The notes under the pieces were generated by a model. The model was not told the origin of the DNA. It ran no database searches and worked only from the letters and a program-made list of their open reading frames with translations. A program made the translations under genes and the position numbers. 64,000 bases of DNA from Cenococcum geophilum 1.58 (lineage: Eukaryota > Ascomycota > Dothideomycetes > Gloniales > Gloniaceae): the NCBI GenBank assembly GCA_001692895.1, contig KV748207.1, positions 1,178,001 to 1,242,000 on the forward strand. The letters run 5' to 3'. Below, one piece after another: positions 33,541-60,887 of the stretch (within the stretch, counting starts at the first letter, position 1; every line of letters starts with the position of its first letter).

Positions 33541-33687
33541 CATTAGGATTTTTTTTTTGGCCATGTTATTGCAAGCGAAAATCGGGGTCTGCAAAACCTG
33601 CGTAAGTCGCAATTTTGGCAATTTGCTACAAATACACAACCCTAATTTTCGGCCGCAACAACGTGGCTAAAAAAAAATTTCCTAATG
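33541..33687. mobile_element. 147-bp palindromic-ended MITE that forms the left end of the large element
   Basis: CATTAGG at 33541 is mirrored by CCTAATG at 33681-33687. Just inside, TTTTTTTTTTGGCCATGTT...GCGAAAAT is mirrored by ATTTTCGGCCGCAACAACGT...AAAAAAAAA, giving inverted arms of about 45 bp. The unit therefore has two complete ends of the same type as the right end of the 27-kb element, and looks like a deletion derivative sitting at, or serving as, its left terminus. Confidence 0.7.
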
Positions 33688-33705
33688 CATAGGAAGTGTA
33701 ACCGT

Positions 33706-34600
33706 AGGGGCAGGCTAGTAGACCTCTTTTATTAAATACGAAATTGCCGCATATTAATAGGCATACTCCTAGTTCTTTAAGCGGCAAGTTAGCAGACTTC
33801 TATTATTAAGCATAAAATTGCCGTATATTGCCTAGCATATTGCCCAGTTCCTTAAGCGGCAAGTTAGTATAGTCTAGTTATTAGGCATAAAACTGCCGCA
33901 TATTACCTAGTACATCGCCTAGTTCCTTAAGCCGTAAGCTAGTAAACTTCTATTACTAAGCGCGAAACTACTATATATTACCTAGCATATTGCCTAGTTC
34001 TTTAAGCAGTAAGCTAGCAGACTTCCACTACTAAGCATGAAGTTGCCGTATATTACTAGGCATATTACCTAATTCTTTAAATTATAAGCTAGCAGGCGTC
34101 GCCCATTAGTAGAGTATTTTAATATATTAGCTCGCATATTGCCTGGTTCCTATATCATAAGCTAATAGACTTGTTATATTAATAGAGCACCACAATATAT
34201 CGCCTGGCGCATTACTTAGGTCCTTAAATAGCAAGCTAGCAGTTATCGCTTATTACTAAAGCACTACGATATATCTAGTCGCTTATTGCCCAGTTTCTTA
34301 AATAGCAAGATAATAAACTTCTCTTATTAATACAAGAATTGCGGTATATTACTAATATATTGCCCTATTCTATAAAAAACAACCTAATATACCTTCTATT
34401 AACCGTAAAAATGCAGTATATTACTAAAAAACATTACTTACTCTATTAAAAAAAACCTCTAGTATATACCTTCTATTAGCTATAAGACTGTAGTATATTA
34501 CCTACTATATTACCCAATTCTTAAAATAATAGCCTAGTATACTTCTTCTACCAGATAAGACTTTGCGGCAAATTGCCTAGTATATTACTTAATTCTGCGC
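33706..34600. repeat. 75-bp tandem array A (subterminal)
   Basis: Units begin at about 33781, 33856, 33931 and 34006, exactly 75 bp apart, with the consensus core AAGCGGCAAGCTAGCAGACT, then TATTGCCTAG. About a dozen units are recognisable, decaying in similarity towards 34600. Non-coding. It recurs as array B at 41095-42060. Confidence 0.85.
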
Positions 34601-34619
34601 TAAAATATTAAAAATACCT

Positions 34620-37600
34620 TGCTAGAGTACTTCCACTAGCTACTCCTTTAAACTCCCTAGCTTATTTATATCTACGTCTAGTATCTTATCCACGGCAGTC
34701 TTTTTAAACTTATACTTATTTAGAATTCTAACCTTACTATAGGAAGCCGTGTTATATAAAATATATACTATTATAAGAGGGTTTTTTTAGTTAATTCGGT
34801 AGATGCGGTATATAAACTGTTCCTATTTGCTAAAGGACAGATTAAGCTCTATAAGTATAATAAAGTGTGCCTTATTAAGGGTAATACCCTTTATAATAGC
34901 CTTTAGAGATAATAAAAGAATTTATAGTCCGCTTAGCTGCTTCCATAAGTTATAGATAATATGGTTCTTTTACTTTAGTAATATTCCTCTAGGGAGATAT
35001 ATAACAGCGTTCTCGCTATATTTAGCAACTAAGGCCTAAAATAAGTGTTAACTTAAAGTTCTGGTTAAGTAAGCTGCTATTAAGAGGTAAAAAGATAGAG
35101 TGTTTTATTACTTACTGCTATATATACCGCCCCAATAGTTAGGAAATTAGTGCCAATAATAACCTTGCTATAATACCCCCCGACGTTTTTTAATTATATA
35201 ACTTCTTTATAGATAGCTAAAAGCGCCTTAAACTTTATATTACCGTAAAGAATTTCCTTTTTATTCTTATCTAAGATGCTTTTAATAGGAGATTTAATTA
35301 ATTTTACGTGAAATTTCGCTTATACGTTAATTTTGTCGTTATTTAGCAGATCCTTATTATATTTATCCTTCCATAAAAGTAACCTATGCGTTATTGCTGC
35401 AACATAGTACGTAAAGTAGGTGCTTAAGGAGGTACCGGCTATTTATACTAGTTGGTTCCCCTTAAGAGAACTATCTTCTTTCTATTTAACTATTTTCTAC
35501 TAAAATGCCTCTTCTATTTCTAACGCCATTGCACTTTCTATACCCTATAGCAATTTAATTTCTACAGTTCTATACTTATAGTTTAGGTAGTAAATTTAGA
35601 GCTCGCCTAAAATAACTTTTAATTTTCTTCCGTTAAAGCTAATGGTATTTAAGGTACGGCGAATTTTAAAGTTTATAAGTATTTCTCCGCCAACCTAAAC
35701 CGATTCTTTATATACTATAAACTATAAGACCCCTTTAGGGTTACTCTTTCCTTATTTTAAAAAATAACTCTATAGCTTTACTATTTTTTTTAACTTTAAC
35801 GGACGTGCATTTTTTAAGAATGCTATTATCTTAGGCGCTTGCCTAATTTAAATCTAAAAGGCCACTTATAATAAACTAATATATGTCTATAACACCATTC
35901 TCTATTAAAGTCCCTAATATAGCCTAGATAAAGAATCTAAGGCGTTTTAGTATAGTACTTTTATAGAAATAAAGAAATTGGTTAACTATAGTCTCTTTAT
36001 TCTTCTTATTATAAAACTTATCCTATAAAACCCTACCAAAAAACGTAGTTTTAACTAACTGCTAACCTTTATCCTTTTGCTTACCGTTAGATAAGAAGCG
36101 GTAGACTCTTCTAGTGATTATAAAGTTGTCAATAACACGCTGTTTTAGGTATTTAGATATTATAATTATAATAAATCTTATTGCTAAGGCAGCTAGGGTA
36201 CTAACTAAAGGATTGCTTTTTCTAAGTAGTAGGACACTATTAAAGAACTATAGGTAAGGGGTTTTTGCTTTATCTATAAGAGCCTAATAAGTATTTAAAG
36301 TATTATAGGCGGTTTAGTTTCCCAACGTTCCTATTTTTAGCCACTCGTCTAAAGTCGGCTGCTTTATGCCTAGAGAAATATCCGCTGTTAAATAGTACAT
36401 TACAACTCTTAGCGGTGCCTACGCTTGCGTTATAAGTAGTAAGTCTTTAAATAATAAGATATAATTATCTTTCTAGGCAGTAATAATATGTAGAACTGCA
36501 ATAACTAGGCTAGCACTATACTATTTACGTATTATAGATATAGCGTTGCGATTTACGCATAAGTATAGTAAAGGTACTCTATTCTAGCTAGGATACTTAA
36601 CGCTATTAGCCTAGTAGCCCTCCGGTAGATATTAAGTAGCATTTTTAGCCGCTTAATTAGTAGCTACTTCGTCTAGGTTTATAGTATAGTAGTAGTTAAA
36701 AATAATAGTTAAGTATACGGTTACTGTTTTACTAGTCCCTATACCGTCTATAAAAACCCTATTATTTAGCTCTATACGTTTCTAGTAGAATATCTTAGAT
36801 ATACTATATAGCTAGTATAAGAACGCTCTAAACTCCGGATTTAGACCCTATTTACAGGGAATAAGGACCATGTTATTCCCTAGGAGGGCCCCTTTAGAAA
36901 CCCCCTATAGCTTAGCTAAGCGTTTATACATCTACTGCTCTATTCTCTTAACCTTACCGCCTACTTTTACCATAGCGGCTTTTTAAAATCTAAAAAAAGC
37001 TAACGTTAGTCTAATTTAAGATGTACTCTATATGCTTATATGCCCATACCTTTACTTAATACAATTAGCAGCCTCTACCTTCCTATTAGCTTCGTTTATC
37101 GTATCTTTAAGGGCCTTTTTTTCTAGGTTGTCGTCTTCTATAGAAACCTGTATAGTGTTACTAGCTAGATCGTCTACGGTTATAACTTATAGTTAAGCTA
37201 GTTTAGGATCTAAAGCGGTTGCGCTTTAAAGAGCATTATAATTGTCTTCGTTCTCCTCTATACTATTAGGACCCCCTATAGGCTAAATAGCTAGACCGCC
37301 ACGGCCGTCCTCGGTAGCTTATTGTAATTTACCTTTAGATGCTCTAGCAGGTTACTCCCTTTTATAACTACGTTTCTTCTAACCTAATAAACTTAGAATG
37401 CTGCTATACGCTAATAAGGTTAATGAAGCATTACTCTTACTTTTAGTGTCTTTATTAATAAACTTATTATCTAAGTATTCTAAGTGCTTATAGATCTGCT
37501 TAGACGCAGTCTTCCGCTGTTTCTTATATATAGGCTTGCTGCGTAAAGACTGGCGAATTAGGGTATTAGTAATGCTAGGAGGGTTTATACTCTACTTACG

Positions 37601-38520
37601 CGGTATTTAGTGCAGTATTTCTATAATTAAATACTCAGCTGCAATTATTAGTATATAAATAGCCAGATATTATTAAAAGAACTTATAATTAGTACTCTTA
37701 AGTATAAATTTCACTTTACTTTTATGGTATAGCATACATCGCTAGAATACGGCTTATAATGCCCTTTACTAGGTAATATAAGCCTCCTTATAGGATTTAA
37801 TATCGACCTATATAATTTAATCCTTATCCGAGTTAAACCCTACTAATACTATAACCTTTTAAAATAGCGAAAAACTAATTTCTTTAATTATTAGAGTTTC
37901 TGTATTAGCTTTTATAATATCATAAATCGTACAAAGCTCTATAGTGTTTTAGGTAGTTAAGTTTATTCTTTAAAATTAGAAGGTTATATTTTTAAGTAAA
38001 AGCGGCTTACCTAATAATATAGGGCCTGGTAATTTTAAGATTTGCTTAGAAGTAAATATAGGCACTAGCGTTATTATGGGTTTAAATTTAGTTTAAGTCT
38101 AACTTCTAGGTTCTAACTTATTTTACTGTTTTATAGCATTAGTTCTTTAAGATATTATTAAAGCAATAATGGTATCTTTAGACCAGCTCTCTAAAACACC
38201 TTTTTTCTTAGGTAATTTGCTAAGAACCTTTTAGATAAAGTCGTTGCGTAGTACTTTATCTTTAGCAGTACGAAATATGACTTTATTAAGCCCGGCCTCT
38301 ACTATACTATTTAAGATTATCTTCTTAATTTCCTTAAGGCGACAAGTATTAATTTCCCATCTATTTATAATATCTAAGTCCTTTATAGTAATGCGTGAAA
38401 ATACTAGGATAGGATAAAGGAGAAGTAGAGCGTTACTATATAAGAGCAGAAGAATCTAGTTAATGTTTAGTAAAGGTGCAAGTCTAAAGTAGGTGGGTAA
38501 GATAAACTAATTATAAGAAT
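34620..38520 (-). pseudogene. SNF2-like helicase pseudogene, copy A
   Basis: Minus strand, read through stops. A Walker A-type motif at 36757-36722 reads FIDGIGTSKTVT (for GxGxGKT). The distal helicase end at about 34920-34780 reads IIKGITLNKAHFIILIELNL, then FIYRIYRINxKNP, which fits SNF2 motifs V and VI (GLNL..A..VI..E......QA.DRIHRIGQ). An ILISLKA-type segment precedes it. The upstream region (38500-37000) encodes a long uncharacterised N-terminal part. I did not find a clear DEAH box. Frame breaks are RIP stops plus a few indels. It is better preserved than copy B. The role in the transposon is unknown; the SF2/SNF2 assignment is by motif only. Confidence 0.55.
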
Positions 38521-38969
38521 TAATTAACTAAGCAGATTGCCGCAGTTCTAGGGTATAAGTCACAGCTTAAAGTAGCAATTAGCGGTTAAATTAATTAATT
38601 AACTAATTAATATCGCGTAGAGGTACCGTGCGAGAGTTAGTTAAGGTAGTAGAGGTAAAAAGTTAGGCGAAGTGGATATTAAAGTTAAGTGCTCCCATAG
38701 TAACGCTAGTAGGCAAATTACCGTCATCTAATGCTTATTAATAGTAAGGTAAATTAAGAAGTTCTAGTAAATACGCAGAATGCCGAGTCTAGCGGCATTT
38801 TGCGGTAGATTGCNTTAGGTAGTATAAGTCTTATATAGTTATAATCTTTAGGATTTAAGAACTAAACCAACTTATTAGTTTATTAAACCTTATAAATCCT
38901 GCTAGACTACTAATATAAAAAGGTAATAACTTAGCTAAGTATAGAATTTACGTATTGTTTTTAATTATT
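38521..38969. other. Upstream end of module A; gene-free, with one ambiguous base
   Basis: To about 38680 the sequence parallels 45720-45850 of module B, then the two diverge. A run of TTAATTAATTAACTAATTAA (about 38594-38613) is shared by both copies and may be part of the helicase gene's 5' region. An N occurs at 38813. No protein recognised. Confidence 0.45.
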
Positions 38970-41080: not shown

Positions 41081-41094
41081 GATTACTGCCTTAA

Positions 41095-42060
41095 AGAGCA
41101 AACCAGCAGACTTTAATTACTAAGCGCGAAATTGCCGTATATTGCCTAGTATACGCCTAGTTTCTTAAGTAGTAAGCTAGCAGACTTCTATTACTAAGTA
41201 AGAAATTGCTGTATATTACCTGGTATATTACCTAGTTCCTTAAGCGGTAAGCTAGCAGACTTCTATTACTAAGCGCGAAATTGCCGCATATTGCCTGGTA
41301 CACCGCCTAGTTCCTTAAGCGGTAAGTTAGTAAACTTCTATTACTAAGCACGAAGTTGCCGTATATTGCTAGGTATATTGCCTAATTCTTTAAATTACAA
41401 GCTAGCAGGTATCGCCTATTAATAGAGTATTCTAATATATTAGCTTATATATTGCCTAGCTCCTATATTATAAGCTAGTAGACTTACTATATTAATAGAG
41501 CACTACAACATATAGCCTAGCGTATTACTTAGGTCTTTAAATAGCAAATAAGTAGGCGCTACTTATTAATAGAGCACTGTAATATACCTAATCGTGTATT
41601 GCCTAGTTCCTACGTCGCAAGCTAATAGGCTCCTCTTATAAGTAAAGTATTCCGAATATTAGCTTGTATATTGCCCGGTTCCCATATTATAAGTTAGCGA
41701 CTTCTTTTATTAATGGAGCACTGTAATATATTACCCGCGTATTACCCGGTTCCTTAAATAGCAAGATAGTATACTTCTCTTATTAATAAAAGAATTGTGG
41801 TATATTGCTAATATATCGCCTAGTTTTATAAAAAATAACTTAGTATATGCCTTCTATTAGCCGTAAAACTACTATACATCGCCGAGTATATTGCTTAATT
41901 CTATAAAAAAAAACAATTTAGTATTTACCTTTTACTAACCATAAGACTGCGGAATACTGCCTACTATATTACCTAATTCTAAAAATAATAGTCTGTTATA
42001 CTTCTTTTACTAAAGAAGAATTTACGGTAAACTACCTAGTATATTGCCCAATTCTGCGCT
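41095..42060. repeat. 75-bp tandem array B
   Basis: The same 75-bp unit and the same order of degenerate variants as array A (for example TTAAATAGCAAGATAG, then TTAATA.AAGAATTG near both ends). The whole array was therefore duplicated together with the adjacent helicase gene rather than expanding independently. Confidence 0.85.
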
Positions 42061-42089
42061 AAAAGGATTAAAAATATATCGCTACTATA

Positions 42090-45000
42090 ATCTATAATAT
42101 TTGCATTAGCTGCTTCTTTAAATTTCCGGGCTTATTTATATCTATATTCTTCTTAAACTTAAGCTTATCTAAAATTCTACTTTTAATACAAAAAGCCGTT
42201 AATAGTAATACCCTCCGTAATAGCCTTTAGAAATAATAAGAGAATTTATAGTCTGTTTAGCTGCTTCTATAAGTTATAGATTATATAGTTTTTTTACTTT
42301 AGTAATATTCCTCTGGGGAGGTATATAACGGCATCCTTACTATATTTAGCAACTAAGGCCTAAAATAAGTATTAGCTTAGAGTTCTAGTTAAGCGTGCTA
42401 CTATTAAGAGGTAAAAAGATAGAGTGTTTTGCTACTTACTAGTATATATACCGCCCTAATAAATAAAAAATTAGTACTAATAAAAAATTTGCTACGATAG
42501 CCTTTAATATATGGTGCTGTTGTAATTTCTTTATAGATAGCTAAAAGCGTCTTAAACTTCGCGTTGTTATAAAGAATTTCCTCCTTATTCTAATCCAAGA
42601 TACTTTTAATGGGATTTTTGACTGCGTTAGTGTAGTATTAAACTAGACGTTTATTTTTTTTGTTATTTAAAAGATCCTTATTAAATCTATCCTTCTATAA
42701 AAGTAACCTAGGTGTTATTACTGTATCACAGCACGTAAAGTAGCTGCTTAAGGAGCTACTGGCCATTTATACTAGTTTTTTCCTAGTAGGAAAACCATCT
42801 TCTCTTATTTAACCATTTTCTGCTAGAATGCCTCTTCTATTTCTAACACTATTACACCTTCTATACTATATAGGAATTTAAGTTCTTTAGTTTTATAATT
42901 ACACTTTATATATTAAATTTAGAGCTAGCCTAGGACAGCTTTTAGTTTTCAGTCATTAAAGTCAATAGTATCCCGGTTACGGCGAATAAGAAAATTCATA
43001 AGAATTAGGCCACTAACCTTAACCGATTCTTTATATATCGTAGACTATAAGGCACTTTTAGGGTTACTCCTTCCCTGCTTTAAAAATTAGGTCTATAGTT
43101 TAGCTATTTTATTAACTTCCGCGGACGTATATTTTCTAAGAATGCTAGGTTAGCTTAAGCGGTTACCCAATCTATATCTTTAAGGGCGCTTATAATAAAC
43201 CAGCACATATCTATAACACCATTCTCTATTACTATACTAGAAATGGCCTAGGCAAAGAATCTTAGGTGTGGTGGTACCACTTTTTTTAAGAATGAAGGAA
43301 TTGGTTAATATAAGTTTCTTAATTTTTTTTATTATAAAACTTATCCTATAAGATTCTGCTAAAGAGCGTAGTTATAATGGTTTATATACTTCTATAGAGG
43401 GCCGTTAGAGAACTATAAGTAGGGCGTTTTCTTTTTACCTATAAGAGTCCAACTATTATTTATTATATTATAATCTAACTAGTCCCCTAAAGTCCCCATT
43501 TAAAGCCGTTTTTAAGGGTTTAGTTGCGCCATTCCTTTAGACACACCTTCTGTCTTATAGTATATTGCAAACCGTAGTAGCGTCTGCTCTTTCATTATAA
43601 GCGTAGAGTCCTTAAATAATAAGATATAATTGTCTCTCTAGCTAGTAATTACACTTAAAATTATAATGACTAGATTTGCACTATACTGTCTTCGCATTAT
43701 AGATATGGCGTTTTGATTTATATATAAGTATAAAAAAGGCATCTTGTCCTAGCTAGGACACTTAGTATCTTTAGCCTAATTATCCTTCTATAGATGCTAA
43801 TTCGCATTCCTAGCCGCTTAATTAGTAGCTACTTTGTCTAGGTTTATAGTATAGTAATAACTAAGGATAATAGTTAAGTACGCGGTTATAATTTTTTTGG
43901 TTCCTATATATTAGCAAAAACCCCACTATTTAGTTACATACGCTCTTAGTAGAATATCTTAGATGCGCTATACAGCTAATATAGAAATAATTTAAACTTT
44001 AGATTTAGACCCTATTTACTAGGAACGGGGACCAGGTTCTTCGCTAAGACGGCCTTTTTAGAAACTCTATATAGCTTAGCCAAATATTTATATATCTATT
44101 GCTCCATTTATTAAACCTTACCTCCTACTTTAGCTATAGCGGCCTCTTAAAATCTAAAAAGAGCTAATATTAGTCTAATTTAAGATGTACTCTATATAAC
44201 TATATACTTATATCTTTACGCAATAGGCATTATAGCCTATATCTCCTTAGCTTAGGTTATATTATCCTTAGGTGCATTTTCACCTAAGGTATCTTAGATT
44301 GTATTAGTTTCTATAATTTTACTAAGGAAAGCTTTTGCGGGTATAGTATTAAATTATTATATAGAGTCTAAGCTGATTAGGGATATAAAGCAGTTTTACT
44401 TTAAGGAGTATTGTGATTATCCTTACCGTGCTCTATATCGTTAGGATTGTCCGTAGGCTAGATAACTAGATTATTGCGGCTGTTTCTAGCAGCTTGCCGC
44501 AGTTTGCCGTAGTTTACCTGTAGATGCCTCTAGTAGGTTACTCCCTTTTATAATTACGTTTCTTTAGACTTAATAGGCTTAGAATGCCGCTGCGTATTAA
44601 TAAGATAGATAAAGCATCGCTCTTATTCTTGCTATCTTTATTAATAAACTTAATATCTAAGTACTTGCGGATCGGCTTAGGCGTAATCTTCTACCGTTTC
44701 TTAAGTGCGGCTTTAGCGCGCGAATACTGTGGGTTAGAGTATCGGCAATTCTAAAAGGGTTTATGCCCTACTTATTTAGTAATTAGTACGGTGCTTTTAT
44801 AATTAAATACTTGGCTGTAATTATTAGTATATAAATAGCTAGATGTTATTAAAGGGACTTATAATCCGTACTCTTAAGTAGAAATTTTACTTTACTCTTA
44901 TTATATAGTATATACCACTAAAATAAGGCTTATAATAGCCCTCGCTAGGTAATATAAACCTCCTTATTAGTGACCACGTTAAGCTAGGTAATTTCATTCT

Positions 45001-45730
45001 TATTTAAGATAAAACCTACTAATACTAAGACCTCTTAAAATAGCGAGAAACTAATTTCTTTAACTATCGGAGTTTCTATATTACCTTTTAAAATTTATAG
45101 ACTATATAAAGCTCTGCAGTGCTTTAGGTAATTAGGTTTATTCTTTAAAACTAAAAGGTTATATTTTTGAGTAAGAACGGCTTATTTAGTAATGTAAAAC
45201 CGTATAATTTGGAGATTGGCTTAGAAGCAAATATATATACCAGCGTTATTATAGGTTTAAATTAGGTTTAACTTCCAACTTTATATTATTTTGCCGTTTA
45301 GTGGCATTAGTCCTCTAGGATAACATAAAAGGAATAATAGCCTATCTAGACTAGCTATTTAAAGCACGTTCCTTCTTAGTTAAGTCACTAAAAATCTTTT
45401 AAATAAACTAATCGCACGGCATTTTATCTTTGGTAGTATAAAACGTAGGTTTTTTAAGCCTAGCCTTTTATATGTTATCCAAGATTATATTTCTTAATTT
45501 CCTTAAGGCGACGAGCATTAATATCTTATCCCTTTATAATATTTAAGTCCTTTATTATAATATATAAAGATACTAAGATAGAATAAAGAAGGAGTGGAGC
45601 GTTGCTATATAAAAGTAGAAGAATCTAATTAGTAATTAGTAAAGGTGCAAGTTTAAAGTAGGTAGGTAAGATAAACCAATTATAAGAGTTAATCTGCTAG
45701 GTAGATTGCCGTAGTTTTAGGGAGTAAGTT
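42090..45730 (-). pseudogene. SNF2-like helicase pseudogene, copy B (internally deleted)
   Basis: Direct duplicate of copy A about 7.4 kb downstream. Two gaps are clear. About 124 bp corresponding to 34751-34874 of copy A are missing at about 42198, which removes the motif VI (RIYRIN) segment. About 190 bp corresponding to roughly 36040-36240 of copy A are missing near 43375. Other differences are mostly RIP transitions. Copy B therefore cannot have encoded a complete helicase and is the more degraded of the two. Confidence 0.6.
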
Positions 45731-45849
45731 ATAGCTTAAAGCAGTAATTAGCGGTTAAACTAATTAATTAACTAATTAATATCGCGTAGAGGCGCCGTAT
45801 AAGAGTTAGTTAAGGTAGTAGAGGTAAAGAGTAAAGTAAAGTGGATAAG

Positions 45850-46397: not shown

Positions 46398-46926
46398 CTA
46401 TCCGTAGCCTTCGTAGCTGCGCCTCGACCACCCACCTAAAGGGTGGGTGGTAGACATCCAAATCGCCAGGACAGCTCAATCGCCACTATTAAACCCACCA
46501 AAAATTAGAAAATTTACACCTTAATATCTTAACAACCACTAAATAATAAATTCTAATAATTTAGATTTAGGCTTTTATATATACTCTATAGCTTTTTATT
46601 AAAGTTATAAAATAAATTATTTAGTAGTTTTTAAGATAGTAAAATTTGGGGGCTAAAATAAGGTCAAAATAAGGCCAAAATACTATATCTTTAAAACTAC
46701 TAAATAATTTATTTTATAACTTTAATAAAAAGCTATAGAGTATATATAAAAGCCTAAATCTAAATTATTAGAATTTATTATTTAGTGGTTGTTAAGATAT
46801 TAAGGTGTAAATTTTCTAATTTTTAGTGGGTTTAATAGTGGCGATTAAGCTGTCCTGGCGATTTAGATGTCCACCACCTACCCTTCGGGTAGGTGGTCGA
46901 GGCGCAGCTACGAAGGCCACGGATAG
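46398..46926. mobile_element. 529-bp foldback palindrome with arms of about 255 bp
   Basis: CTATCCGTAGCCTTCG at 46398 mirrors CGAAGGCCACGGATAG ending at 46926. Symmetry continues through GCGCCTCGACCACC, a small internal palindrome (CCACC...GGTGG) and a long AT-rich stretch, to a centre near 46660. The arms differ by only a few transitions. It has no coding capacity. It looks like a foldback or long-TIR non-autonomous transposon; no target duplication is evident. Confidence 0.8.
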
Positions 46927-47063: not shown

Positions 47064-49160
47064 ACCTTTCACCACACATGCAACCTTACCAAAAGGTAGC
47101 GCCACACTTCAAAACTTACGCATACCCATCTTACCATCAAAAACAATCGATTTTCCAAGTTTCAAGACCTAACTCCTACTGCCTAGCGAGCTAGAGGTGG
47201 ATTTATTTGTCATTTTACCCCCTTATCCCAACAGAAAATTTTCTCTAGGGGTGGTCCTAGCTTGTAAACGAGGCACAGACAGGAACACCAAAACTACTAC
47301 CACTACCACCAATACCAATACCAACACTAATAGGGGCTAGTCTTTCTACTGCCTTTTAGCCTAATCTCCCCAGAAATCTTCTAGTAGGATTAGTAAGGAG
47401 AAAGGGTATAAGGATAGTAAAAACTAGGAAACCCCCCTATAAGATGCCAAAGTCTAATAGGCATAAAAAAAAACCTCCTATAGAAATAAGTGATAATGAG
47501 TCTACGACTACATTCACTTTTTCTGCCCCTTCTCCTTCTCCTGGCCTATTTGGGACAGGAGAAAAAAGAGGACATCCTCAGTCTTCTACTGAAAAGAAAA
47601 CCAAAAACCTGCAAAAAAGACAACAAAATTAATGACTTTTACGGCTGGTATACCTAGTATATCTTTCCCTCCCCTTTCTCCTAAACAACACCTACAAAAG
47701 GCCCTAGAAAGCCTAATACAGGCCTATAAAGGGCTAGAAGAAGAAGAAAAAGAAGAAGAAAAAGAACAAGTCAAACAGCTAGAGGACTATACACGGAGTA
47801 TTCTAGCAGGAGAAAATCCCTTTATGGAAGGAAAAGAAAAGGCAAAAGATATCCTACAAGGATTAGTCGAAGAAGTAAGAGCTCTCCGTAAGGAGGTAGC
47901 TCCTACTAGGAAAACCTACGCAGAGAGACTAAAGAAGAACCTCCCTTCCTCGTCCCCTCTACCCTCCTTACCAATACCATCTCCTACCCTTTCTACTTCT
48001 ACTAGAAATAAGAAAAAGCAGCTACAAGAAAGGAAGCTAGTCCTTATTACAGACAAAAGGACCAACCTCTAGATACTTTCTCTATACGAAACAAAGTCAA
48101 TCAACTATTTGCATCAAAACTGCAAGTAAAAAAGCCAGTTCTAGGGTCTATAGGAAGAACTAAAGAAAACAAAACATCCTTCTTACAATACAGAAGAGTA
48201 TAAATGCCAGATTTCCTAGTCAAATATAAGGAAATATTGGCATAACTGCTTTTACCTTTCAAAGAGAACAAAAACTAGAACCATGGGTTCAAATTATAGC
48301 CCATGGGGTTCCTACCCTACCTTTCTAGGAGAAGGAGGCTCTAAGCTTCTAAAAGAAGAATTGAGACCTTTATCCTATAAGGATACAAGGACTACCTAGA
48401 TGGATCTCATCTAGTGAAAAAAGACACAATCCACAGACCAGATTTGGCTCTATAGTTTTTACTATAGAGACGAAGAAAAAAGACAAGAAATCCTTAAGCA
48501 AAAAGAGATATCAATTGCAGGTACAGCTACTAAGGTAGTAAAATACCTCGAAGTCTCTCCTACTACGCAGTGTACGAGCTGCCAAAATTTGGCCATATAG
48601 GAGACAGGTGCTCTACTAGAGCCTGTAGATACTGTGCAGCTGCACATTTATCTAAAGACCATTCCTGTTCTACCTGTATAATAACAGGCAAACCTTGCCA
48701 GCATACCACCCCTCTTGCATTAATTGTTAAAGAAAAACACTTTGCTAATAGTAAAGACTGCGAGACTCTTAAAGCAGCTAGACTAGTATGTAATGGAGAT
48801 TCTATGGAAGAATAAAACAGATAGGATTCTAGAAGGAGGCAACTCCTACTAGGCTCTTAAAAAGATATTAGAGAGCAAAAGGACAGAAATAATCGCAAAA
48901 GGACAGGGACAGGTGTTAGGATTTCCTATGGTTTTTTCCTACCGTTTCTTATTCCCTAGTAGTTGCAGCACCTTAGTATTTTATTAAGGAGCTATAAACC
49001 CTTAGGGGTTTATAAACTACTAGGACATAGCTACTAGTACATGTTAAGCTGCCTAGAAAGGATTCATGTATATAGAACTATAGCGCCATAGCCTAGAGGC
49101 TGCATGCGCAGTATTGTACGTAGTATAATACAACGGACCTAAAAAAAAAAAAAAAAAAAA
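47064..49160 (+). mobile_element. LINE-C1: recently inserted LINE with internal deletion, 14-bp TSD
   Basis: Bounded by AAGGCTCTGCACAA at 47050-47063 and 49161-49174, and ending in an A tract of about 20 residues before the right duplication. CA/TG-rich, so only lightly RIPed. It keeps the 5' region and ORF1 but lacks the endonuclease and RT. At about 48828 the ORF1 end joins sequence matching the 3' region of LINE-C2 (GGATTCTAGAAGGAGG versus its complement near 57150). About 2.1 kb in total. Confidence 0.88.
47444..48815 (+). pseudogene. LINE-C1 ORF1 (Gag-like, three zinc knuckles), frameshifted
   Basis: ORF1 is broken into pieces. 47444-47632 (62 codons) ends in TAA, and the next frame starts one base later in a TAATG overlap (47632-48072, 146 codons, with a Glu- and Lys-rich helix, EEEEKEEEKEQVKQLE). 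Two later frames resume further on (DTFSIRNKVNQLFASKLQVK near 48065-48125). The end, 48550-48760, carries three knuckles: CTSCQNFGHIGDRC (first part one frame off), CRYCAAAHLSKDHSC, and CINC/KEKHFANSKDC, again split by a shift. It would bind LINE RNA in the ribonucleoprotein. No intact product. Confidence 0.75.
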
Positions 49161-49179
49161 AAGGCTCTGCACAAGGGTA

Positions 49180-49749: not shown

Positions 49750-52700
49750 ATAGTTATTAGGATGGCTAGCAGATCGCCGCAGATTATAGCTATTAAATTA
49801 GTTATATAATACACTGCCCTTTTTAGGTACAAACCCACCTATTTAATCTTAATAACAACGTAAGGAGCCGCATTTATCGCTATTATAATAGGCTTAATAA
49901 ATCGCCAGTGCCCTAAATATAAGCGCACGATTTCTATTATAGGTGGATTAGCGCGACATAAGCTATACTGCAAAGCTATGGGTATAGACTATCTTAACTA
50001 ACAGGATAATATCTATTTTATAATTTAGGCTTAAGCGGATACATATAAAGACGACAAATTTACTATAGAATAATAGGTACACGACCTTATAGCAACTAAC
50101 ACCGCTATTAATAATACTTTACTAACTATTATAGGAAATACTAGCTTAATATTAGCAGAGGAGCTAAGTAATATAGCACCGGTAGAATAACTAACCAGCA
50201 CCAAAACGCACAGTCACGCGGCAATAAGCCTCTCTACCTTAAATATTTATTATACCTAAACTTATTATAAAGTGACTGGCCGCCATATAGGAACCCTACT
50301 TAACTACCCAGAGGGGAACTCTAATTAGCAGTTTGCTATAGATTGCGACTACCCACTAAGGCCTAGCCAGCCAGCAGATAGAATAAACGAAGGTAATAAT
50401 ATATTCTACCCTTTTATAAGCTCTATAGAATAGGCGTAAGTTGCCTAATAGGTACGTAATAGTATATTAGTAAAAGAAATAGACGCGTGGCTATAAGACC
50501 CCTATATTAAAAATATAAGGGACGGATATATATTATACCAAAATGCAAAAAAAGTTAAGACAAAACTATATTCTATTTCTAAAGGTATAAGTAATAAGAG
50601 CTGGCGAATTACAGAACTTAATATATATGGCAAAAACCTAAAGATATACCACCATAATATACTTAGCGTGGTGGCCTTCCTAATTGGTCATTTCCCATTT
50701 AAAGATAATATGGTTTATTCTCCTATTTATTAGTTTAACGTAAAAGGTAATAGAGTATATAATAAGGTATATACGGCCGACCGTTAATAGGAGATCCAAG
50801 ATTAATTACCTGATGGTGTAACAGCTATTATAGTAATACCTAGTAGCGACCAAACTAAGCTAACTACACTATCCGGAAATAAAAAGGCGCATCTAGTTTA
50901 TATTACGATACTTAATATCCTATTAAAGACTTAATATATAGCTAGTAGGCCAGTAATACTTCTTCTAGGTTATATACCTACGGACTTACTAAGTAACCGG
51001 ATAAACAAGCTAGATATATACTATTAAGTAATAAGCATTATATTTAAACGTAAGTATTTACCTTAGCAGTGTATAGGTACTTAAGTTAACATAAAAACTA
51101 GCCCTTAAATACGCTGCTAGGCGCGGCATGTTAATATAATACGCGGATAGGTTTATCCGGCAATGCTATCCTATACTTATTAGGTTTATAGCAGATTATA
51201 AGGAGCAGGTTATATTAATAGGAGTAAAATTAGGGTAATACTATATAATGTGTTATATACCGCCTTATAAACAAGATAACCTACTAAGCACTATATCCGG
51301 CAAATGGCCGCGACGGACACACAAATCAACTATTAAGCAACTTAAACGATAGTAAAACTTATAGCTAGATCGCAGCGACCCTAAGTATATTAGGCCAATT
51401 TAAAATTTTGCCTAGTCCTATTATATAGCGGATATACACGCTATAATGGCCCCTAATTTACTACACTAGCTATATAAAGGCGTTACGGAGCATTTAATAA
51501 GCTGGCTTTAGGCACTACTACTTAATATTAAAAAAGGAAAAGGGAAGGTTCTAATAACTAATTAGAGTAGTATAAAAACCCTATTATCTATTAAGGATAG
51601 GGTAGAACGTCTTTTAACCGCATAATTCACTAATATTAAACCCTTTTAGGGTATAATTAGATAGGATAACTTCGCAAAGTTAAGCTAATAGACTGGAAAG
51701 ATATATAAGTCCCTTCTTCGTCAGATTATACTAGTTATAGCACCGTTACTATATAGGTATAAGGGGGCAATGCTGTTTATTTATGCTATAGTTAACTTTA
51801 TATTATTAGCCGAATATAAATTATATAATAAAGATACAATTAAATATCTTAAAGCTGTATTATATCAAATAGATAAGACTAAGGAGGCGTTCTTACTATA
51901 CTAACCTAACGACAAAAACCCACCTAATTTTAACATACCTAAACTTTATGCAATTTCCTACTATCCGGAGATAATTTGTATATTTGGCGCCCTAATAGGA
52001 ACTACAACAGAGTATGGCGAAAGGGCATATATTCCTTAGAAGAATTTTTATTAAAGATTAAATAAGCGTAAAGAGTATAAAGAGTAAATAATTTATCTTA
52101 ATACGGAATTAATAAACACTATAGTAATATAAGAGATAGAGCTATAGGAAAATATAAGGCTAATACTAGCAGCTAATACTATAGAAGATTTATACATTAT
52201 ATTATTATTAGGCATAGTTAACCTAACAGACGAGCCGTATAGATGGGATTACTGCTAGTTAACTAACTAAATGTTTTCGATATACGGAATAAACCTAAAT
52301 TTATAGCGCAGAGCCTACGAAATTTAGACTAGGCTAGGTATTAATGAATTTGTTATAAAACTAGCTTTATTTATATAGGAATGTTATAAGCGAGTTAATA
52401 GTATATAAGCAACGGATTTAGACGTTAAGCGCTTTAAAAGGGATACAGCCTAGGCACAAGATTTACCTATTAGTATTTATTACTCTATAATATACTATAT
52501 TTAACGCGGTAAAGACTTTTATAATTTTAATTAACTATATAAAGCACGGGCATATTGCAATCCAGTCTAAATATAGACCACTACCCTATGAAGGGACTAA
52601 GTTCTTATACAAGAATATAAGAACGTAATAGATAAAATAAAGGGAACGCGGGCTGCCAGTCTAGAATTGCTAATATCGGTATAGGACTTAAATTATATAG

Positions 52701-53310
52701 GTGAGAATGGTAGATACTAAGTATACCATAGAGCACTTTTTAAGCTATTCCGTCCATGCAATGGAGGTAAGGTAAATCCTTTTAATAGGATAATTAAAGT
52801 AGAACAATTTCCTATAAATATAGCGCAAAATAGACGAAACCTAGACGGCTACCGAATATACGACATTTCCTATATTAAGAGACCTATATAACTAATACCA
52901 ACTTCACTAAATAAAAGAAAAACGTTCTAGATAAACTTATACACAGATTAGGACATATACAATCGATTCTATAATAATAATTTTCTTTAGATTAACAGCA
53001 CACGCGCAGATAAGTTTATAAAGAAATAAAAATCTAAAACTAAGCTTCTAATTAAATCATGGGAGGCCTTAGAACAAAAATAAAAACGGCTAATATAATA
53101 GGGAATCCGGTATATTTAATCCCTAGGAATCTAGGCAAATTGGCTATAAGATAAGGCAAGATAGAAAGAAGTTAAGAAAGCCGTTAGTTAGCTTAAAGGT
53201 AGAGGCGGCGTGTCCAATATATGGGTAAATTAAGTAGTAAAGGGGCTCGTTAGAGTAAGAGGCTGGCTAGCTATATATATTTTTGCGGATTTTATATTAG
53301 CAGAGTAGTA
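49750..53310 (+). pseudogene. Plavaka-like transposase (RIPed)
   Basis: One long plus-strand frame, restored in part by reading TAG/TAA as Trp or Gln. An N-terminal C2H2 finger at about 49900-49975 reads CPKYKRTISIIGGLARHKLYC. Then, in order: PSSDQTKLTTLSGNKKAHLVYIT (about 50845-50910), LLLGYIPTDLLSN (about 50960-51000), YPAMLSYTYQVYSRLQGAG, then APNLLHQLYKGVTEHLISWL (about 51450-51510, stops read as Gln), and NFNIPKLYAISYYPEIICIFG with TEYGERAYI (about 51930-52035). These blocks fit fungal Plavaka transposases, a CACTA-related DDE family that cuts and pastes DNA at terminal inverted repeats. Length, about 1150 codons, is in the family range. Inactivated by stops. Confidence 0.75.
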
Positions 53311-53319
53311 TAATAACCC

Positions 53320-54084: not shown

Positions 54085-56540
54085 CTTCTTTAACTTCTTC
54101 TACGTTAGTTATACTAAAGGTTTACTAACCTCTACCATCCTAAAAGAATATAACTACAGCTTCTAAAAAGAATAAGGTATAAACTACCCTCTATATAACT
54201 ACTTAAAATACTAATATATACCTACCACTAAGGTAAAGGTAAAAGAAATAGCACTGCTAGTGTAAGAAGAATTTAGAAACGTATACGCGAACGGCAGTTA
54301 GGCTAAAGTACTATAAATAGTATATGTACGGTAGCATGCAGCTAACTTTAGTAGACGGCTATATATGGCGATAAAGTATCCAGGGATAGTATCCTAAAAC
54401 GTTAGTTAGATATAAATAGCGATTCTAAAGAAGATAGAGGCTTAATGCCCTAGGGAAGAGCGCATTGTTAATAACTCCAGTAGAGTTTAAATAAAGAATC
54501 TCTAGATCTATATATATAGAATTTAACTATAGTATCTATTATATAGACTCTATTCCTTTACACCCGCTTACGCTTTAACAGCGGTTATAAGTCCTAAATC
54601 GCCCTAATAAGCGGCTTTAATGCTACTATCCCTCTACTAAAGAGCTTATCTCTAGTGCTGAAGATAACTCTATAGCCGAGTCGTTTTATATAGCGCCTAT
54701 ACGCAGTAATAAACCGCAGAAGTCTTAATACGGTATATATACAGTTGGAAGATAGTAAGGAATAAAACGTGGTAGTAAACCTAAATTAAAACTTACGGAT
54801 AAACTAATATCAAAAGCTGCTATGCGCTTCTTTTTAATGTTTATAATATTAGGTAAGGCTCCTAAAGGTCTTTCTCTTACGCTATAGCCAAAAGGGAACG
54901 TAAAGACTCTAGAAAAGACAATAGACTTAGTATAGGATAAAGCAGTAGAGTATAATGGGGTTTCTAAAGGTAACGGTTCTAGCAAGGCTATATAAAAACC
55001 ATCGCCATTAATATATCGCATGGCAAGCTACCTCTTATTGCTTCTATATATACTAATATAAAATAGATATATAATAGCATCAGCTAGTTCCGGTCTTACC
55101 TATTAAGACGCATACGAGATTACGTAAAGGCTAAGTACTTATTTAGAAAGCTCTCTAAGTAGGAAACAATTGCTAAAGTAGAAGAGCTACTCTATATAGA
55201 TAACTTTTAATGCTCTAAGATAGTACGCATAGCTATACTACCTTAGCACTCTCCTAACTATTTACAGGGCGAGCAATCCCGCTTTATAGCACCAGTTATT
55301 ATAGTTAATCTCTCCAAGTTATTCTTTAAAGAAAGGTAGCAATTTAGGTTCGGTATAGATACGCAGCACTTTCTACGCCTAATTAGCCCTAGGGCTGTTA
55401 TACTAATTTGTATAATAATCCGCCACGTTATTAATAAATGGAAAAGTGGTAGTTTTACCCAATAAAAGTTTAAAGTAGGTACCAATCTTAATAGTAATTT
55501 ATTCTTTCTCTACCCTCGTTCTAACTACCTAGGCTATACCGTAACTAACTCTAATATTAGCTATATAGGAACGGATAAAGGCTATATAGGCAGATTAGTT
55601 AACAGAGCGCCAAAACCGGATTTTAGGGCTTCTATAACAGGGCGTCTTAAAAAGACATTAAGTAACTATATACAGCAACGACCCTACTATATAAGTAATT
55701 CCAAATCTATTTAAATATAGTCTTAATAATCTTTCTAACCTAGATTTTAACTATAACGCAGGATTTAATAAGCAGCGCTTTAATATACTTTTACTAGTAT
55801 ACAACTATTTATAATAACAGTTCTAGACTAATACTTATATCTAGGTACTTAACGCGTCCCTTTCCTTAAACCTAGATACCTCTCGCCCTTTTGGCACTAT
55901 TACTTAGCCTAATACACCCTATAATATATCGCCTAATTAGACTAACTATAGTACCAATTACTAAGGCGGTAGGCCTAACGATATTAGCGACCCTAATAGC
56001 GGTACGGATAGCGGGACTGATATAAATAAGTGTTATAACGGATATAGTGGAGTTAATATAGATAAAGATGGCGATGCGGATAATAGAATAGATATAGCTC
56101 TAGGTAGAAATATAGATGATTAGAATAGTGTGAGAAAGGGGGGCAACGAATATAATAGAGTGGACATAGGCAATAATGCCGGCGTAAATAGTAGAGAAGA
56201 TATGGATAAGGATAGTGGCGCTAGTAATAATTTCGGAAATAATACCTATAAGCTTATTTTTAAAGGTATAAAATCGCGGAATTGGAAATGTACTATTAAT
56301 ATACTATATCGCTAGAATTACGAACAGTTAATAGCTGCAGTTAAGCTATTTAGAAAGACGCTTAGGGCTAAACCTAATGTAAGTCTTTAGTATACTATTG
56401 GAAAAGAGGTTAAGTCTATACTATTTAATAATAAGGATCTAGATATCTTTAGAACAAGGGTAGAAGAGGGGCTAGGCAAGGCAAATACTTCGTAGTCTGT
56501 AATAGGTTTAGAGGAGTAGCTATTTTATATAGTAGTTATA
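54085..56540 (+). pseudogene. Possible DUF6532-like protein remnant
   Basis: A long plus-strand frame with RIP stops. N-terminal helical part at 54240-54700 (VQEEFRNVYANGS, then FSRRLYMAIKYPGI). The middle part at about 55090-55480 reads IRDYVKAKYLFRKL, then FIAPVIIVNLSKLFFKE, then LISPRAVILICIIIRHVINKW, then GSFTQQKF. This resembles the C-terminal half of DUF6532 proteins (conserved FxxPxI...Fx...P...AL..T....L..W..G). A Gly-, Asn- and Asp-rich linker follows (about 55980-56230), then a final domain (LIFKGIKSRNWKC). The family call is tentative. I recall DUF6532 genes as common near Plavaka or KDZ elements in other fungi, but cannot verify that here. Confidence 0.4.
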
Positions 56541-56570
56541 ATATAAATATATTTTTAAAGGCATATTATA

Positions 56571-56620
56571 GCAATCTATAGCAATCTATAGCAATCTATG
56601 GTAATCTATGGCAATCTATA
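56571..56620. repeat. 10-bp tandem repeat GCAATCTATA
   Basis: Five units of GCAATCTATA (variants GTAATCTATG, GCAATCTATG). Very close copies of this motif also occur singly in the Gypsy-A LTR (CAATCTATAGCAATCTAACGG). Confidence 0.85.
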
Positions 56621-56639
56621 GCAGTATATTATAATTTAT

Positions 56640-56728
56640 ACAGTTCGTACAGTTTGTACAGTTTGTACAGTTCGTACGGTTTATATAGTTCGTACAGTTC
56701 GTACAGTTCGTACAGTTTATACAGTTTA
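56640..56728. repeat. 9-bp tandem repeat CAGTTCGTA
   Basis: About ten units of (A)CAGTTCGT or CAGTTTGTA in direct tandem. With the 10-bp array just upstream it forms a subterminal repeat block near the right end of the large element. Confidence 0.85.
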
Positions 56729-57559
56729 CGCGCTATTTATTTATAGGGTAGTAAAAAGCTAGCATTAGTTTAATAGTTAAGCGTTTTGCTATAATTTACT
56801 CTTTTTTTTTTTTTTTTTTTTATATCCATTGTATTGTACTACGTACAATACTGCGCATGCAGCCTCTAGGCTATGGCGCTATAGTTCTATATACATAAAT
56901 CCTTTCTAGGCAGCTTAATATATACTAGTAGCTATGTCCTAGTAGTTTATAAACCTCTAAACTAGAGGTTTACCGCTCCCTAGTAGATTACTAGGTTACA
57001 ACAACTATTAGGTAGTATTAAAACAGTAGAAAAACGGTAAAAGAAACGGTAAAAGAATCCTAACGCCTGCCCCTGTACTTTTTATAGTTTATTTCTATCC
57101 TTTTGCTCACTGCTGTCTATTTACTAGGAGTTTAGTAGGAGTTACCTCCTTCTAAAGATCCTTCTTCTATTAGCCACTTTCTAGTAGCTATTTTTGTCCT
57201 ACTTAGGAATAGAAAAAGCGCCCTTCTTCCTTTCTCTATACAAAAAAGCTTCTCTAGGGAGAGAGAAGAGCTTAGTTATCTTTGCATTTCTTTTCTTTCT
57301 TCCCAGTATAATCTGCATTCTAGTAATAGGTGCTTAGGAGTCTGTATAGCTCTACAGTCCTTAAAGCATCTACCTTCTTTATCTTTCCCTATTGTCTTAG
57401 AGAAGGATTTAAAGAAGCCTTTTCCTAGTTTTAGTTGAAAAAACGCTGATTATAGCTTTTTAGGATATTTATCCTTAGGGGCTTTAAGAGATAAAGAGTA
57501 GTTTCCTCTAGAGATCCTAGTATAGTATTTTCCTTTATTTTTATTCTGTTGCCAATTAT

Positions 57560-58985
57560 TTTTCCACTATCCTAGTATCTTTTCTCTTGCTGCTCTCCCT
57601 ATGTAGGCTAGGGATGTATAAGAAGATTATATTTTTCTTCTAGAAAGGCCCTTTTTAGCTAGCTTATCTGCTATTTCATTTCCATAAATTCCTAGGTGGC
57701 TAGGAACCCAGTAGAAGTTAATAGAGATACTCTTACTAGCTAGATAAGAGCAGCTTTGCGTAATTTTAAAGACTAGTTCTTATCCCCCTATAAGAGAATT
57801 AAGCTATAATCTTTTAATAGCTGCTTGGCTATCTATAAAGATATAAACCTATTTCTCTTCTAGTCTTTATTGTTTTAGATATTCTAGGGCCCTATAAACT
57901 GCATAAAGTTCTGCGTCTATAATTTCTATATAAGGCCCTAGATTCCAATTTGTTGCGTATTTAATCCTCTTTCTCTCCCCTATTTTACATACGGCCGCTA
58001 TACTTAATTTACTATCTTTAGAGCCGTCTATATAGTATATATCTACTAGGTCCCATTCTAGGGATTCTTATAGATTTTCTACTAGTCTTAAATGTTCTTG
58101 TGCAGCTTCTTCTTTACTACCCCTAGAGATAGAAAAGAATGCAGAAATAGGGGGAGACCACGGTTTTTGCCAATCTAAAGAGATTCTCTCTATTTTCCAA
58201 TTTTGAATTAGTTGTTAAACTCTAGAAGCTAGAGATAGTAGTTGAGTTTTTGGCTGTAGAAGGTGCCTTATAGTAGAGTTTCTAGGGCTAGAGCTAAAAC
58301 TAGAACTAGTTGCTAGTTCCTCCCTATCCTTATCAATCTCTTCTATATAGGCCTTCTTAATTGCGTAGTTTTCTTTAAATTTTAGGATTCTTAATGTATA
58401 GCTATTGCAAAGCTTTTTAAATCTAATTCTAGGAGGAGGAATAGAGGCCTCGATTTCCATAGCTTGGGTAGGAGATCCTCTAAACGCTCCTAAAACTAGT
58501 CTTAGGGCCTCATTTTGTAGAGATTGGTACCTAGCTAGTAGGTAGTCTCTAGATTTACTTTTCCACCAGCATTGTATTCTATAGTCTGCTATAGTAGTAA
58601 CGCAAGCTATATAGAGCTGTCGTAGAGCTTGTAGAGATAGACCTCTTTATATATTGCCTAGTCTTCTAATTAAATAGAAGGCTGTTTTTACTTTAGAGAT
58701 TTTTATTTCTACGTGTTGTTTAAAAGTAAGCTTAGAGTCTAGAAATACCCCTAACCACCTAACTAGGGGTTTAGGGGATATTTCTATATCTCCTAGCTTT
58801 AGCCCTTCTTCTATAGTAGTACGCTTACTATAGAAGTGTATAAGCTCTGTTTTACTAATATCAAAACTAATAGCGGCTTCTTTAGCTCTGGACATTAGCT
58901 CTAGCGCTATTCCCTCTAGCTTTTTACAATTAGATTTAGCTGAGTTCGAATAGGTAGTTATATATTAGCTAGTAATACAGTAGAG
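57560..58985 (-). pseudogene. LINE-C2 ORF2 fragment: end of RT, connector and RNase H
   Basis: Minus strand. It begins inside the RT catalytic region (SxYITTYSNSAKSNCKKLEG at about 58965-58910). The open piece 58895-58647 follows, with FDISKTELIHFYSKR and LVRWLGVFLDSKLTFKQHVE, the RT thumb region. The connector 58460-58215 contains RIRFKKLCNSYTLRIL. RNase H at about 58040-57600 shows YIDGSKDSKLSIAAV, AELYAVYRALEYL, YIFIDSQAAIKRL and FYWVPSHLGIYGNEIADKLA, so the catalytic D, E, D and the terminal D-containing loop are visible. Few stops compared with the older LINEs. Confidence 0.82.
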
Positions 58986-59430
58986 TTCAACATGCCTACT
59001 TATCCAGGCCTCTACCCCAGTTTTCTAGTGCTTTAGTCCTAGTCTATAAGCAGTTGGCTGCCACCACCCATAACACGAGGAATCTCACCAGTTCTTTCGG
59101 ATATCTTATAACGGAATTACCCGAGTACCAGTCCGCCCCCCAGCGGACTATATAAGAGTTTCCTCCTAGAGTTGGTACGCTTTCGCACGGCTTAGGAGCC
59201 TTCTATAGCCTCTAGTTTTACGCTTCTCTTCATTGTTTCCGCCAGCGCGGGCATAAGCTGCCATTTGCAGGGGTCGCAACTCCCGTCTCACGCGCCTACT
59301 GGCGTAATCCTACGAGGGCGTCGTGGCTGCATCCTGCAATATAGCTAGGTACACCTTCTACAGTCGAGGCCCAGCCAAAGCCTCTCCCGCCTGAGTAACT
59401 CCTGTTTGCTCCTTAAGCGTACCTCACCAG

Positions 59431-59493
59431 CGTACTGCCCTAGCGAGCAGTCGTACTGCCCTAGCAAGCAGTCGTACTGCCCTAGCGAGTAGT
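59431..59493. repeat. 21-bp tandem repeat, three units
   Basis: CGTACTGCCCTAGCGAGCAG followed by T, repeated at 59431, 59452 and 59473 with one or two differences. Confidence 0.9.
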
Positions 59494-59900
59494 CCCGTCT
59501 ATTGGTACACCGACACGCGCATCCGTTCTCTCGAGCCACGTAGTAGTCTCTCCGGCCAGGACGTGATCCTGCCTGCCTACCAGGTGCACTAGGGGTCAGA
59601 GCCCAGCTAAGGGGTGAGGTCCCTAGAGCCAGCAGTGGCTACTACGTACTACGCCCCGCGGGCCTTTTAGTTCCCGTTTCGCGTTGCCTGTAAGAGTCTC
59701 CTCATGATAGGCCGACCGTGTCTTGCAGGAGGGACCCATAGATGCTAGGTCCCGCGCCAGGCGACCTGCTCTACCCTCTCCTACTAACCAAGCTTATGTC
59801 CCCCCTTTTTATAAGCTGGCCTGTGTCTCTAACTGTCGAGTCCTCGTCCGACTGGCCTGTGTTTCCTTAGAGCCTCCCCCATATATATATGCGTCAGGTT

Positions 59901-60120
59901 GCGTGCACCACGCCTATTAAGACCCTCCAGTGAGTCACCTGTAGGTCGACCGTAAGTCGAACGCCATGGGGCCGTCGAAGCTGGCCTGTGTTTCCGCTGC
60001 CTAGAGCTTTGCCCGTGTTTCCACCTCGTTGAGCCGTCTGGTCGCCGTCGCGTCGCTGTCGCGTCGCTGTCTTCTAGGTCGCGCGCACCACGCCTATTAA
60101 GACCCTCTTCTGAGTCACCT
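59901..60120. repeat. 40-bp direct repeat pair, 180 bp apart
   Basis: 59901-59940 and 60081-60120 share CACCACGCCTATTAAGACCC followed by TC, two or three variable bases and TGAGTCACCT. Confidence 0.88.
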
Positions 60121-60706
60121 GAGTGTACCGGATACCAGATAGGCCCTCGTAGAGGGGCCTTAACGAGTTCTCTAGGCAGGGCCTTAACAAGTTCTTCGCG
60201 GTGGCCTTGGGGCCTTAACAAGTTTCGTATGAGGTGCCTGCGACGCGTTAACCTTAACAAGTTCTTATAAAAAGAGGTTCCCTACTCCCTCGCCGCGTTC
60301 CTTTGCGATCTCAGAGCTAGTGCAAGCCCAAGGGTGTCCTGTTGTACGCCTAGGTCGCGTCCACGTCGACTGGCTAATAAGGCCAGTTTCGGGCCTGGCT
60401 ACAAGCCAGGTAGTCGTACATCGGGTGGTTTTCGTATCCCAGTTTCCCTTGATAGGCCTCCCTAGGTGGTAGAGCAGGAGCCTTAAGCGGAGGCAGTAAG
60501 GCTCCTGGTGTTGTTGAGGACGATGCTTTGTACGATGCTTCGTACGCGTCGCGGGCTCAACACCACAGAACCGCGCTGCATGCGCTGCGACGGCTCTCTA
60601 CCATCGCCTCTGCACTTGGCCATCGTAAGGAATGAATTCCTGATGATGTTTCCACCCGCGGCGACGTGGACGCGTGCAGTAGGGCTTCGCGGGCTGCTAT
60701 AATTTA

Positions 60707-60785
60707 CTATTAGATATTGTAAACTTGTTATAAAACGCGCGGTTTGCTATTAGATGCTATAAACTTGTTACAAAACGCACGGTTT
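60707..60785. repeat. 40-bp tandem subterminal repeat near the right end of the large element
   Basis: Two adjacent units (60707-60746 and 60747-60785) sharing CTATTAGAT, AAACTTGTTA and AAAACGC.CGGTTT. The complement AAACCG and CGCAA/TTGCGG motifs continue to the terminus. Confidence 0.8.
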
Positions 60786-60819
60786 ATATAATTCGCTAAC
60801 GACTATATCCACCTGCCGC

Positions 60820-60885
60820 AACCGTATAGTTTGCGGCAATTTGCCGCAAACCGCAACAACCAGCCCAAAAAAAAATTGCCTGATG
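60820..60885. repeat. Right terminal inverted repeat of the large element
   Basis: Ends AAAAAAAAATTGCCTGATG; the complement begins CATCAGGCAATTTTTTTTTG, then GGCTGGTTGTTGC, matching the left end CATTAGG...GGCCATGTTATTGC. A GTTTGCGGCAATTTGCCGCAAAC palindrome-like segment lies just inside. The following bases AG (60886-60887) duplicate 33539-33540. Confidence 0.72.
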
Positions 60886-60887
60886 AG

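Follow-up and report, generated by a model that had tools for sequence, protein, structure and literature searches.

The stretch of fungal DNA analysed here (64,000 nucleotides, referred to as the window) contains, between positions 33541 and 60885, a block that lies inside a retroelement gene. It has an inverted-repeat terminus at each side and carries a stop-riddled Plavaka transposase gene, a pair of SNF2-like genes, a DUF6532 domain, subterminal repeat arrays and three nested insertions (Table 1). We consider this block very probably a copy of a cut-and-paste transposon family of about 21 kb, of the PlavakaB type, in a probably pezizomycotine fungus in which repeat-induced point mutation (RIP) is active. 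An ISWI gene of this genome has its best structural match in PDB 5jxr, which comes from a filamentous ascomycete.

The left end, at 33541 on the plus strand, reads CATTAGG-A-T10 ... (GTTATTGC), and the right end, at 60885 and inverted on the minus strand, reads CATCAGG-CAA-T9 ... (GTTGTTGC). A minus-strand frame of the target stops at 60886 after ...D-E-N-P and resumes with N-K-L-I from 33538, and the two parts are in frame once one copy of the flanking AG is removed. This split frame itself carries stops. None of the three minus frames of each flank matched a Pfam family above its cut-off, and the name "Copia gag" given earlier to the target was not confirmed; Rfam gave no match over the whole window.

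We then searched the genome for both ends, using 33541–34000 as the left-end query and a separate right-end query, with the best 40 candidates scored for each. Right ends were counted as close at 88% or higher, left ends as full when the match began no later than query base 15 and extended to base 460, and weaker and partial end matches were excluded from pairing. As a result, the matches listed comprise 14 close right ends and 20 full left ends, among which there are 13 same-strand end pairs, all with different flanks (C32, which is the window, C53, C7, C42, C34, C4, C19, C80, C24, C91, C13, C33 and C69). The two bases outside the ends are identical in 11 of the 13 pairs (six TA, two AG, two AA and one GT), and agreement over 3 bp occurs in none of the 13. 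With a chance agreement of 0.085 per pair, calculated from window dinucleotides, at least 11 of 13 corresponds to P of about 1e-10. The copies, whose ends were placed from the matches with an accuracy of about 10 bases, measure 20,897, 21,003, 21,003, 21,022, 21,078, 23,439 and 27,345 bp (the last being the window) and, for the longer ones, 27,988, 29,216, 37,488, 40,677, 42,541 and 43,298 bp. Many short or palindromic relatives (L018, L020–L038 and a class of right ends at 82–84%) share one terminus of the giant element only and are likely non-autonomous derivatives or related families.

All 13 paired copies contain a Plavaka match in the same orientation, which ends 5.47–6.03 kb from the right end in eight copies, 9.4 kb from it in the window (about 5.5 kb when its long interspersed nuclear element, LINE, is subtracted) and 12.2–16.9 kb from it in the remaining four. 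A DUF6532 match is present in seven, six times at 1.5–1.6 kb from the right end and once, in the window with its LINE included, at 5.4 kb. The C42 copy aligns to window positions 33542–56803 and 60703–60885 with about 89% identity, apart from three window inserts, and these gaps are insertions gained later by the window copy; the LINE-like insert has no Pfam domain. Over the three largest blocks of the alignment, 2059 transitions and 32 transversions distinguish the two copies; 1207 of the transitions are in CpA/TpG context, and the base composition shows a CpA-type RIP signature. Since almost only transitions separate this pair, the one pair compared base by base, the copies would have been near identical when RIP struck, which points to a recent burst that spread the copies, with RIP damage afterwards.

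The target offers a further line of evidence. We joined 300 bases of flank across the insertion and searched this sequence in the window's own genome (177.19 Mb, 162 contigs). Of 174 first-look candidates, 40 copies were scored, and every one of the 40 spans the junction without net length change. In all six sites that were fetched, the sequence ...TTATTAG runs straight into the right flank and AG occurs once. These empty sites are paralogous retroelement copies, not alleles of the 33541–60885 site. Apart from this insertion, the repeated retroelement is continuous.

The unit moves whole between its two ends with a 2-bp target site duplication. The original prediction, made from the letters of the window, had described 33541–60885 as one transposon that split a retroelement gene, and the shared termini, the 2-bp duplication, the empty sites and the collinear 21-kb copy bear this out. 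Its inverted-repeat ends flanked by AG on both sides were found at 33541 and 60885, and the frame that excision was said to restore does rejoin. The size of about 21 kb proposed for the element without later LINEs agrees with five copies of 20.9–21.1 kb and with the collinearity of C42 and the window, and the suggested genome search for copies with both termini returned the 13 pairs, which enclose the Plavaka transposase. The later insertions were also right, although not all of them are LINEs: one is a LINE, one is LINE-like and one is a 523-bp inverted-repeat element.

Table 1. Features of the element at 33541–60885 and of its immediate borders (window coordinates).
Feature	Position	Strand	Remarks
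Left target site duplication copy, AG	33539..33540	.	2-bp target site duplication
Left terminus	33541..33687	+	terminal inverted repeat and inward-facing second copy (33687-33655); recurs with adjoining family sequence at at least 20 places
Subterminal arrays of ~75-77 bp repeats	33709..34546	+	33709-34080 and 34340-34546
SNF2-helicase-like gene A	34700..38899	-	approximate limits; stop-riddled; frame P0001
Second array of the 75-bp repeat	41105..41393	+	
SNF2-like gene B	42197..45847	-	diverged, frame-shifted duplicate of A; 74-78% DNA identity
Nested 523-bp inverted-repeat element, like a miniature inverted-repeat transposable element (MITE)	46401..46923	.	missing from C42 copy
Nested LINE-like insert	47064..49160	+	poly-A tail; AAGGCTCTGCACAA duplication; missing from C42 copy
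Plavaka transposase gene	50536..52987	+	stop-riddled; two Pfam pieces in different frames, 50596-50997 and 51104-51508
DUF6532 domain of second gene	55058..55477	+	same strand as transposase; PF20149, E 3.4e-12, 47.1 bits (cut-off 24)
Short tandem repeats, 9-10 bp	56567..56726	.	precede right terminus
Nested LINE, ~3.9 kb	56800..60695	-	approximate limits; RNase H domain; poly-T start; GCTATAATTTACT duplication; missing from C42 copy
Right terminus	60703..60885	+	40-bp repeats, then terminal inverted repeat
Right target site duplication copy, AG	60886..60887	.	2-bp target site duplication

The transposase remnant that had been predicted inside the element is recognised by the PF18759 profile in two frames, with 77.5 and 69.9 bits (cut-off 26.3), and it aligns to a genomic Plavaka, L001 at C30, with a tblastn E-value of 3e-85. 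L001 (C30:1712561–1713541) has a 412-aa open frame with 5 stops, far fewer than the next full-length Plavaka matches, and the top score of all 123; its C-x2-C motif reads CIIC and is altered in the window copy. C80 has the form CATCA..TGATG on its left side (CATCAGG), as do some right ends, that of the window (CCTGATG) among them; all remaining ends in the 13 pairs depart from it by C/T or G/A, giving CATYAGG..CCTRATG overall. PlavakaB, in the passage describing it, has a PF18759-type transposase with C(2)C and H(3-4)H motifs between its second D and last E, ends CATCA..TGATG and a target duplication of 2 or 3 bp (Kojima 2025, PMC12730594). The window family has in common with it the transposase type, the ends (with their C/T and G/A variants) and a 2-bp duplication, and judged by sequence its ends and duplication fit PlavakaB. 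Two other assignments were rejected. PlavakaA requires the termini TGT..ACA, which are not those observed here. KDZ elements require a 7–8 bp duplication and a KDZ transposase, and here the duplication is at most 2 bp and the scanned frames gave no KDZ match. The scanned frames of the element gave no TET/JBP match.

The SNF2-like genes were followed through gene A. By our own reading, its frame P0001 has a P-loop-like stretch near 36.7 kb, and it has a Helicase_C-like end near 34.79–34.97 kb. It matches SNF2-type frames that lie near Plavaka at C4:5.27 Mb (6e-13) and C46 (8e-10), whereas 20 shuffled versions of C46 reached 0.045 at best in HMMER; in BLAST without composition correction, one shuffle reached 2e-4 against 7e-13 for C4. 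The link to the C4 and C46 frames was not found by tblastn at E 1. SNF2-type relatives beside other Plavaka genes score 29.3 and 26.8 bits with PF00176, above its cut-off of 24.9. The three minus frames of gene B gave no helicase match, solved-structure searches with P0001 and with an SNF2-like frame at L085 gave no match, and NCBIfam gave no relevant match for three proteins. Transversions between A and B amount to 1–11% per site, depending on bin and codon position, against 32 in about 20 kb between the window and C42, so the gene duplication predates the last burst. The 75-bp array and the SNF2-like gene after it are both duplicated within the element (33709–34546 and 41105–41393). Further RIP-mutated SNF2-type matches, many with a 202-aa open frame, were seen at C71, C75 (four matches), C36, C100, C76, C128 and other places; by eye they lie away from the scored Plavaka matches, and they possibly represent another mobile family.

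The DUF6532 domain also recurs beside Plavaka genes. When the 123 Plavaka matches were merged to 110 loci, 52 of the 76 genomic DUF6532 matches lay within 40 kb of one and 24 did not. Among these 52, DUF6532 is 4.17–4.54 kb downstream on the same strand at 14 loci and 15.5–16.8 kb upstream on the opposite strand at 22, with other spacings at 16. We read the two spacing peaks as two giant families sharing DUF6532, which suggests that a second giant Plavaka family exists. Examples of the second arrangement are C19:252058 with C19:268227 and C8:1059032 with C8:1043115; at C46, an SNF2-type frame lies between the Plavaka and DUF6532 genes of this arrangement. A protein search with a DUF6532 frame scored none of 339 candidates at E 0.001, and the predicted fold of DUF6532 was uninformative (mean predicted local distance difference test score 36.2). 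In a passage of a Ganoderma study, DUF6532 is named beside Plavaka among domains limited to parasitic and symbiotic fungi (PMC8955403).

Several points weigh against the account given above. First, the match between the terminal repeats is weak when taken alone: its score of 29 was reached 3 times when 20,000 pairs of 40-mers were drawn at random from the window, and the true ends come only eighth among 120 pairings of window pieces anchored on T tracts. Outside evidence was therefore needed, and the uninterrupted paralogous sites and the 13 end pairs elsewhere in the genome decided the matter. Second, the family is not uniform: partners are lacking among the matches listed for 7 of 20 left ends and for 1 of 14 right ends, 6 of 13 paired copies have no DUF6532 match, and the duplications of C4 (TA/CA) and C69 (TC/TT) each differ by one C/T change. 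Moreover, TA accounts for six of the eleven identical duplications, and the P value above would be too low if the element favoured TA. Third, no stop-free Plavaka copy was seen among the scored matches, which bears on activity and autonomy. Fourth, the Helicase_C score of gene A (PF00271, 16 bits) falls under the Pfam cut-off of 23.5, and transversions between A and B have no clear codon periodicity, with several gaps not multiples of three. The naming of both genes as SNF2-like is indirect, coming from a relative and from motifs.

Other explanations can be weighed on the same evidence. There is a small chance that the element is non-autonomous, its own transposase being already dead and the unit relying on another Plavaka family for mobilisation in trans, as the stops in all 123 scored Plavaka matches and the less mutated gene at C30 would allow. 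However, Plavaka is retained in 13 of 13 copies, in nine of them at a similar distance from the right end once the window LINE is discounted, and the stops can postdate the burst, since the window and C42 differ nearly only by transitions. It is very unlikely that the termini come from separate small elements, with the intervening DNA joined by chance. The left 147 bp (33541–33687) do resemble a complete MITE, with terminal repeats at both of their own ends, and short palindromic relatives elsewhere in the genome match the first ~86 bp; the left end may derive from a short palindromic unit of this kind. But this unit recurs together with the sequence up to 34000 at 20 or more places, 13 of them paired with a right end and Plavaka, which contradicts separate origins, and the duplicated target bases lie outside the outer ends. 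At ten left-end loci (L009–L017 and L019) the inner sequence is nearly constant and the outer flanks vary, and the 147-bp unit therefore belongs to the element. Spread by segmental duplication or recombination, which large RIP-mutated copies might bring to mind, is hardly tenable, given the 2-bp duplication in 11 of 13 pairs, the different flanks in all 13, the uninterrupted target copies and the similarity between the window and C42, which ends at both termini with nothing shared in about 350 bp of C42 flank per side. Finally, a Starship-type giant element, defined by a tyrosine recombinase captain, can be dismissed although this is a large gene-bearing element in a probably pezizomycotine fungus, as its ends are terminal inverted repeats, its transposase is of Plavaka type and the scanned frames (those outside 33541–34600, some frames of 41900–46300, and 58200–60885) gave no tyrosine-recombinase match.

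The PlavakaB-type family can be set beside known large elements. The Plavaka families in the relevant passages of PMC12730594 were reconstructed from Agaricomycotina, and those of two species carry TET/JBP genes, which Kojima proposes counter silencing in fungal transposons; the window family, of 21 kb, differs in its probably pezizomycotine genome with CpA-type RIP, its SNF2-like and DUF6532 genes and the lack of a TET/JBP match in scanned frames. The "Plavaka giant repeats" of Amoebidium are, in the part of PMC11244446 concerned, gene clusters of up to 50 kb, "usually flanked by" the transposase and with tyrosine recombinase genes in large number. They resemble the window family in very large size, in the Plavaka transposase and in clusters of repeated genes; the window family, unlike that account, has its ends and target duplication defined. 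Enlarged EnSpm/CACTA elements of Chondrus crispus, 16–20 kb with 4–5 open reading frames (ORFs) as cited in a passage of PMC6431247, are likewise CMC-group elements enlarged by extra ORFs. They belong to a red alga and to another transposase lineage. A mushroom transposable element library reaches about 42 kb, the superfamily being unstated in the passage (PMC9674265). The size had been predicted to be unusually large for the group; 21 kb with extra genes stands, but Amoebidium provides a precedent in the part of that report cited. Large Plavaka-linked repeats are thus already known (Amoebidium, PMC11244446), and within the literature covered the window family itself is a new variant. Among the Plavaka papers covered, mostly open-access ones, no account of this family or of an SNF2 partner was found.

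The element had been predicted to be one giant element with cargo; it is one element, and its cargo can now be specified as at least the SNF2-like gene pair and the DUF6532 gene. Elements of this group move by means of a DDE transposase that cleaves the two ends and links them to a new site, and subterminal repeats are protein-binding sites in other CACTA-like elements. By analogy, the 75-bp arrays on the left and the 40-bp repeats on the right are putative protein-binding sites, and the element's DDE transposase would act on the ends and these subterminal arrays, moving the whole 21 kb. The DUF6532 and SNF2-like genes would be long-term partner genes, not host genes captured once. An SNF2 remodeller could serve a silencing-countering end similar to that proposed for TET/JBP. 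Going further, giant Plavaka elements might carry a standing trio of transposase, SNF2-type remodeller and DUF6532 in at least two families of differing gene order, the remodeller being an anti-silencing or target-opening partner in the role proposed for TET/JBP in mushroom PlavakaB elements and DUF6532 an accessory of transposition; we put this forward by analogy, as a speculative idea that is rather unlikely to hold in full.

With this family, Plavaka gains a size class that has exact ends, a target site duplication, empty sites and 13 paired copies. It also prompts one to ask why two diverged SNF2-like genes should be retained in a DNA transposon, and it leads to the prediction that the functionally uncharacterised DUF6532 domain would be a transposon gene.

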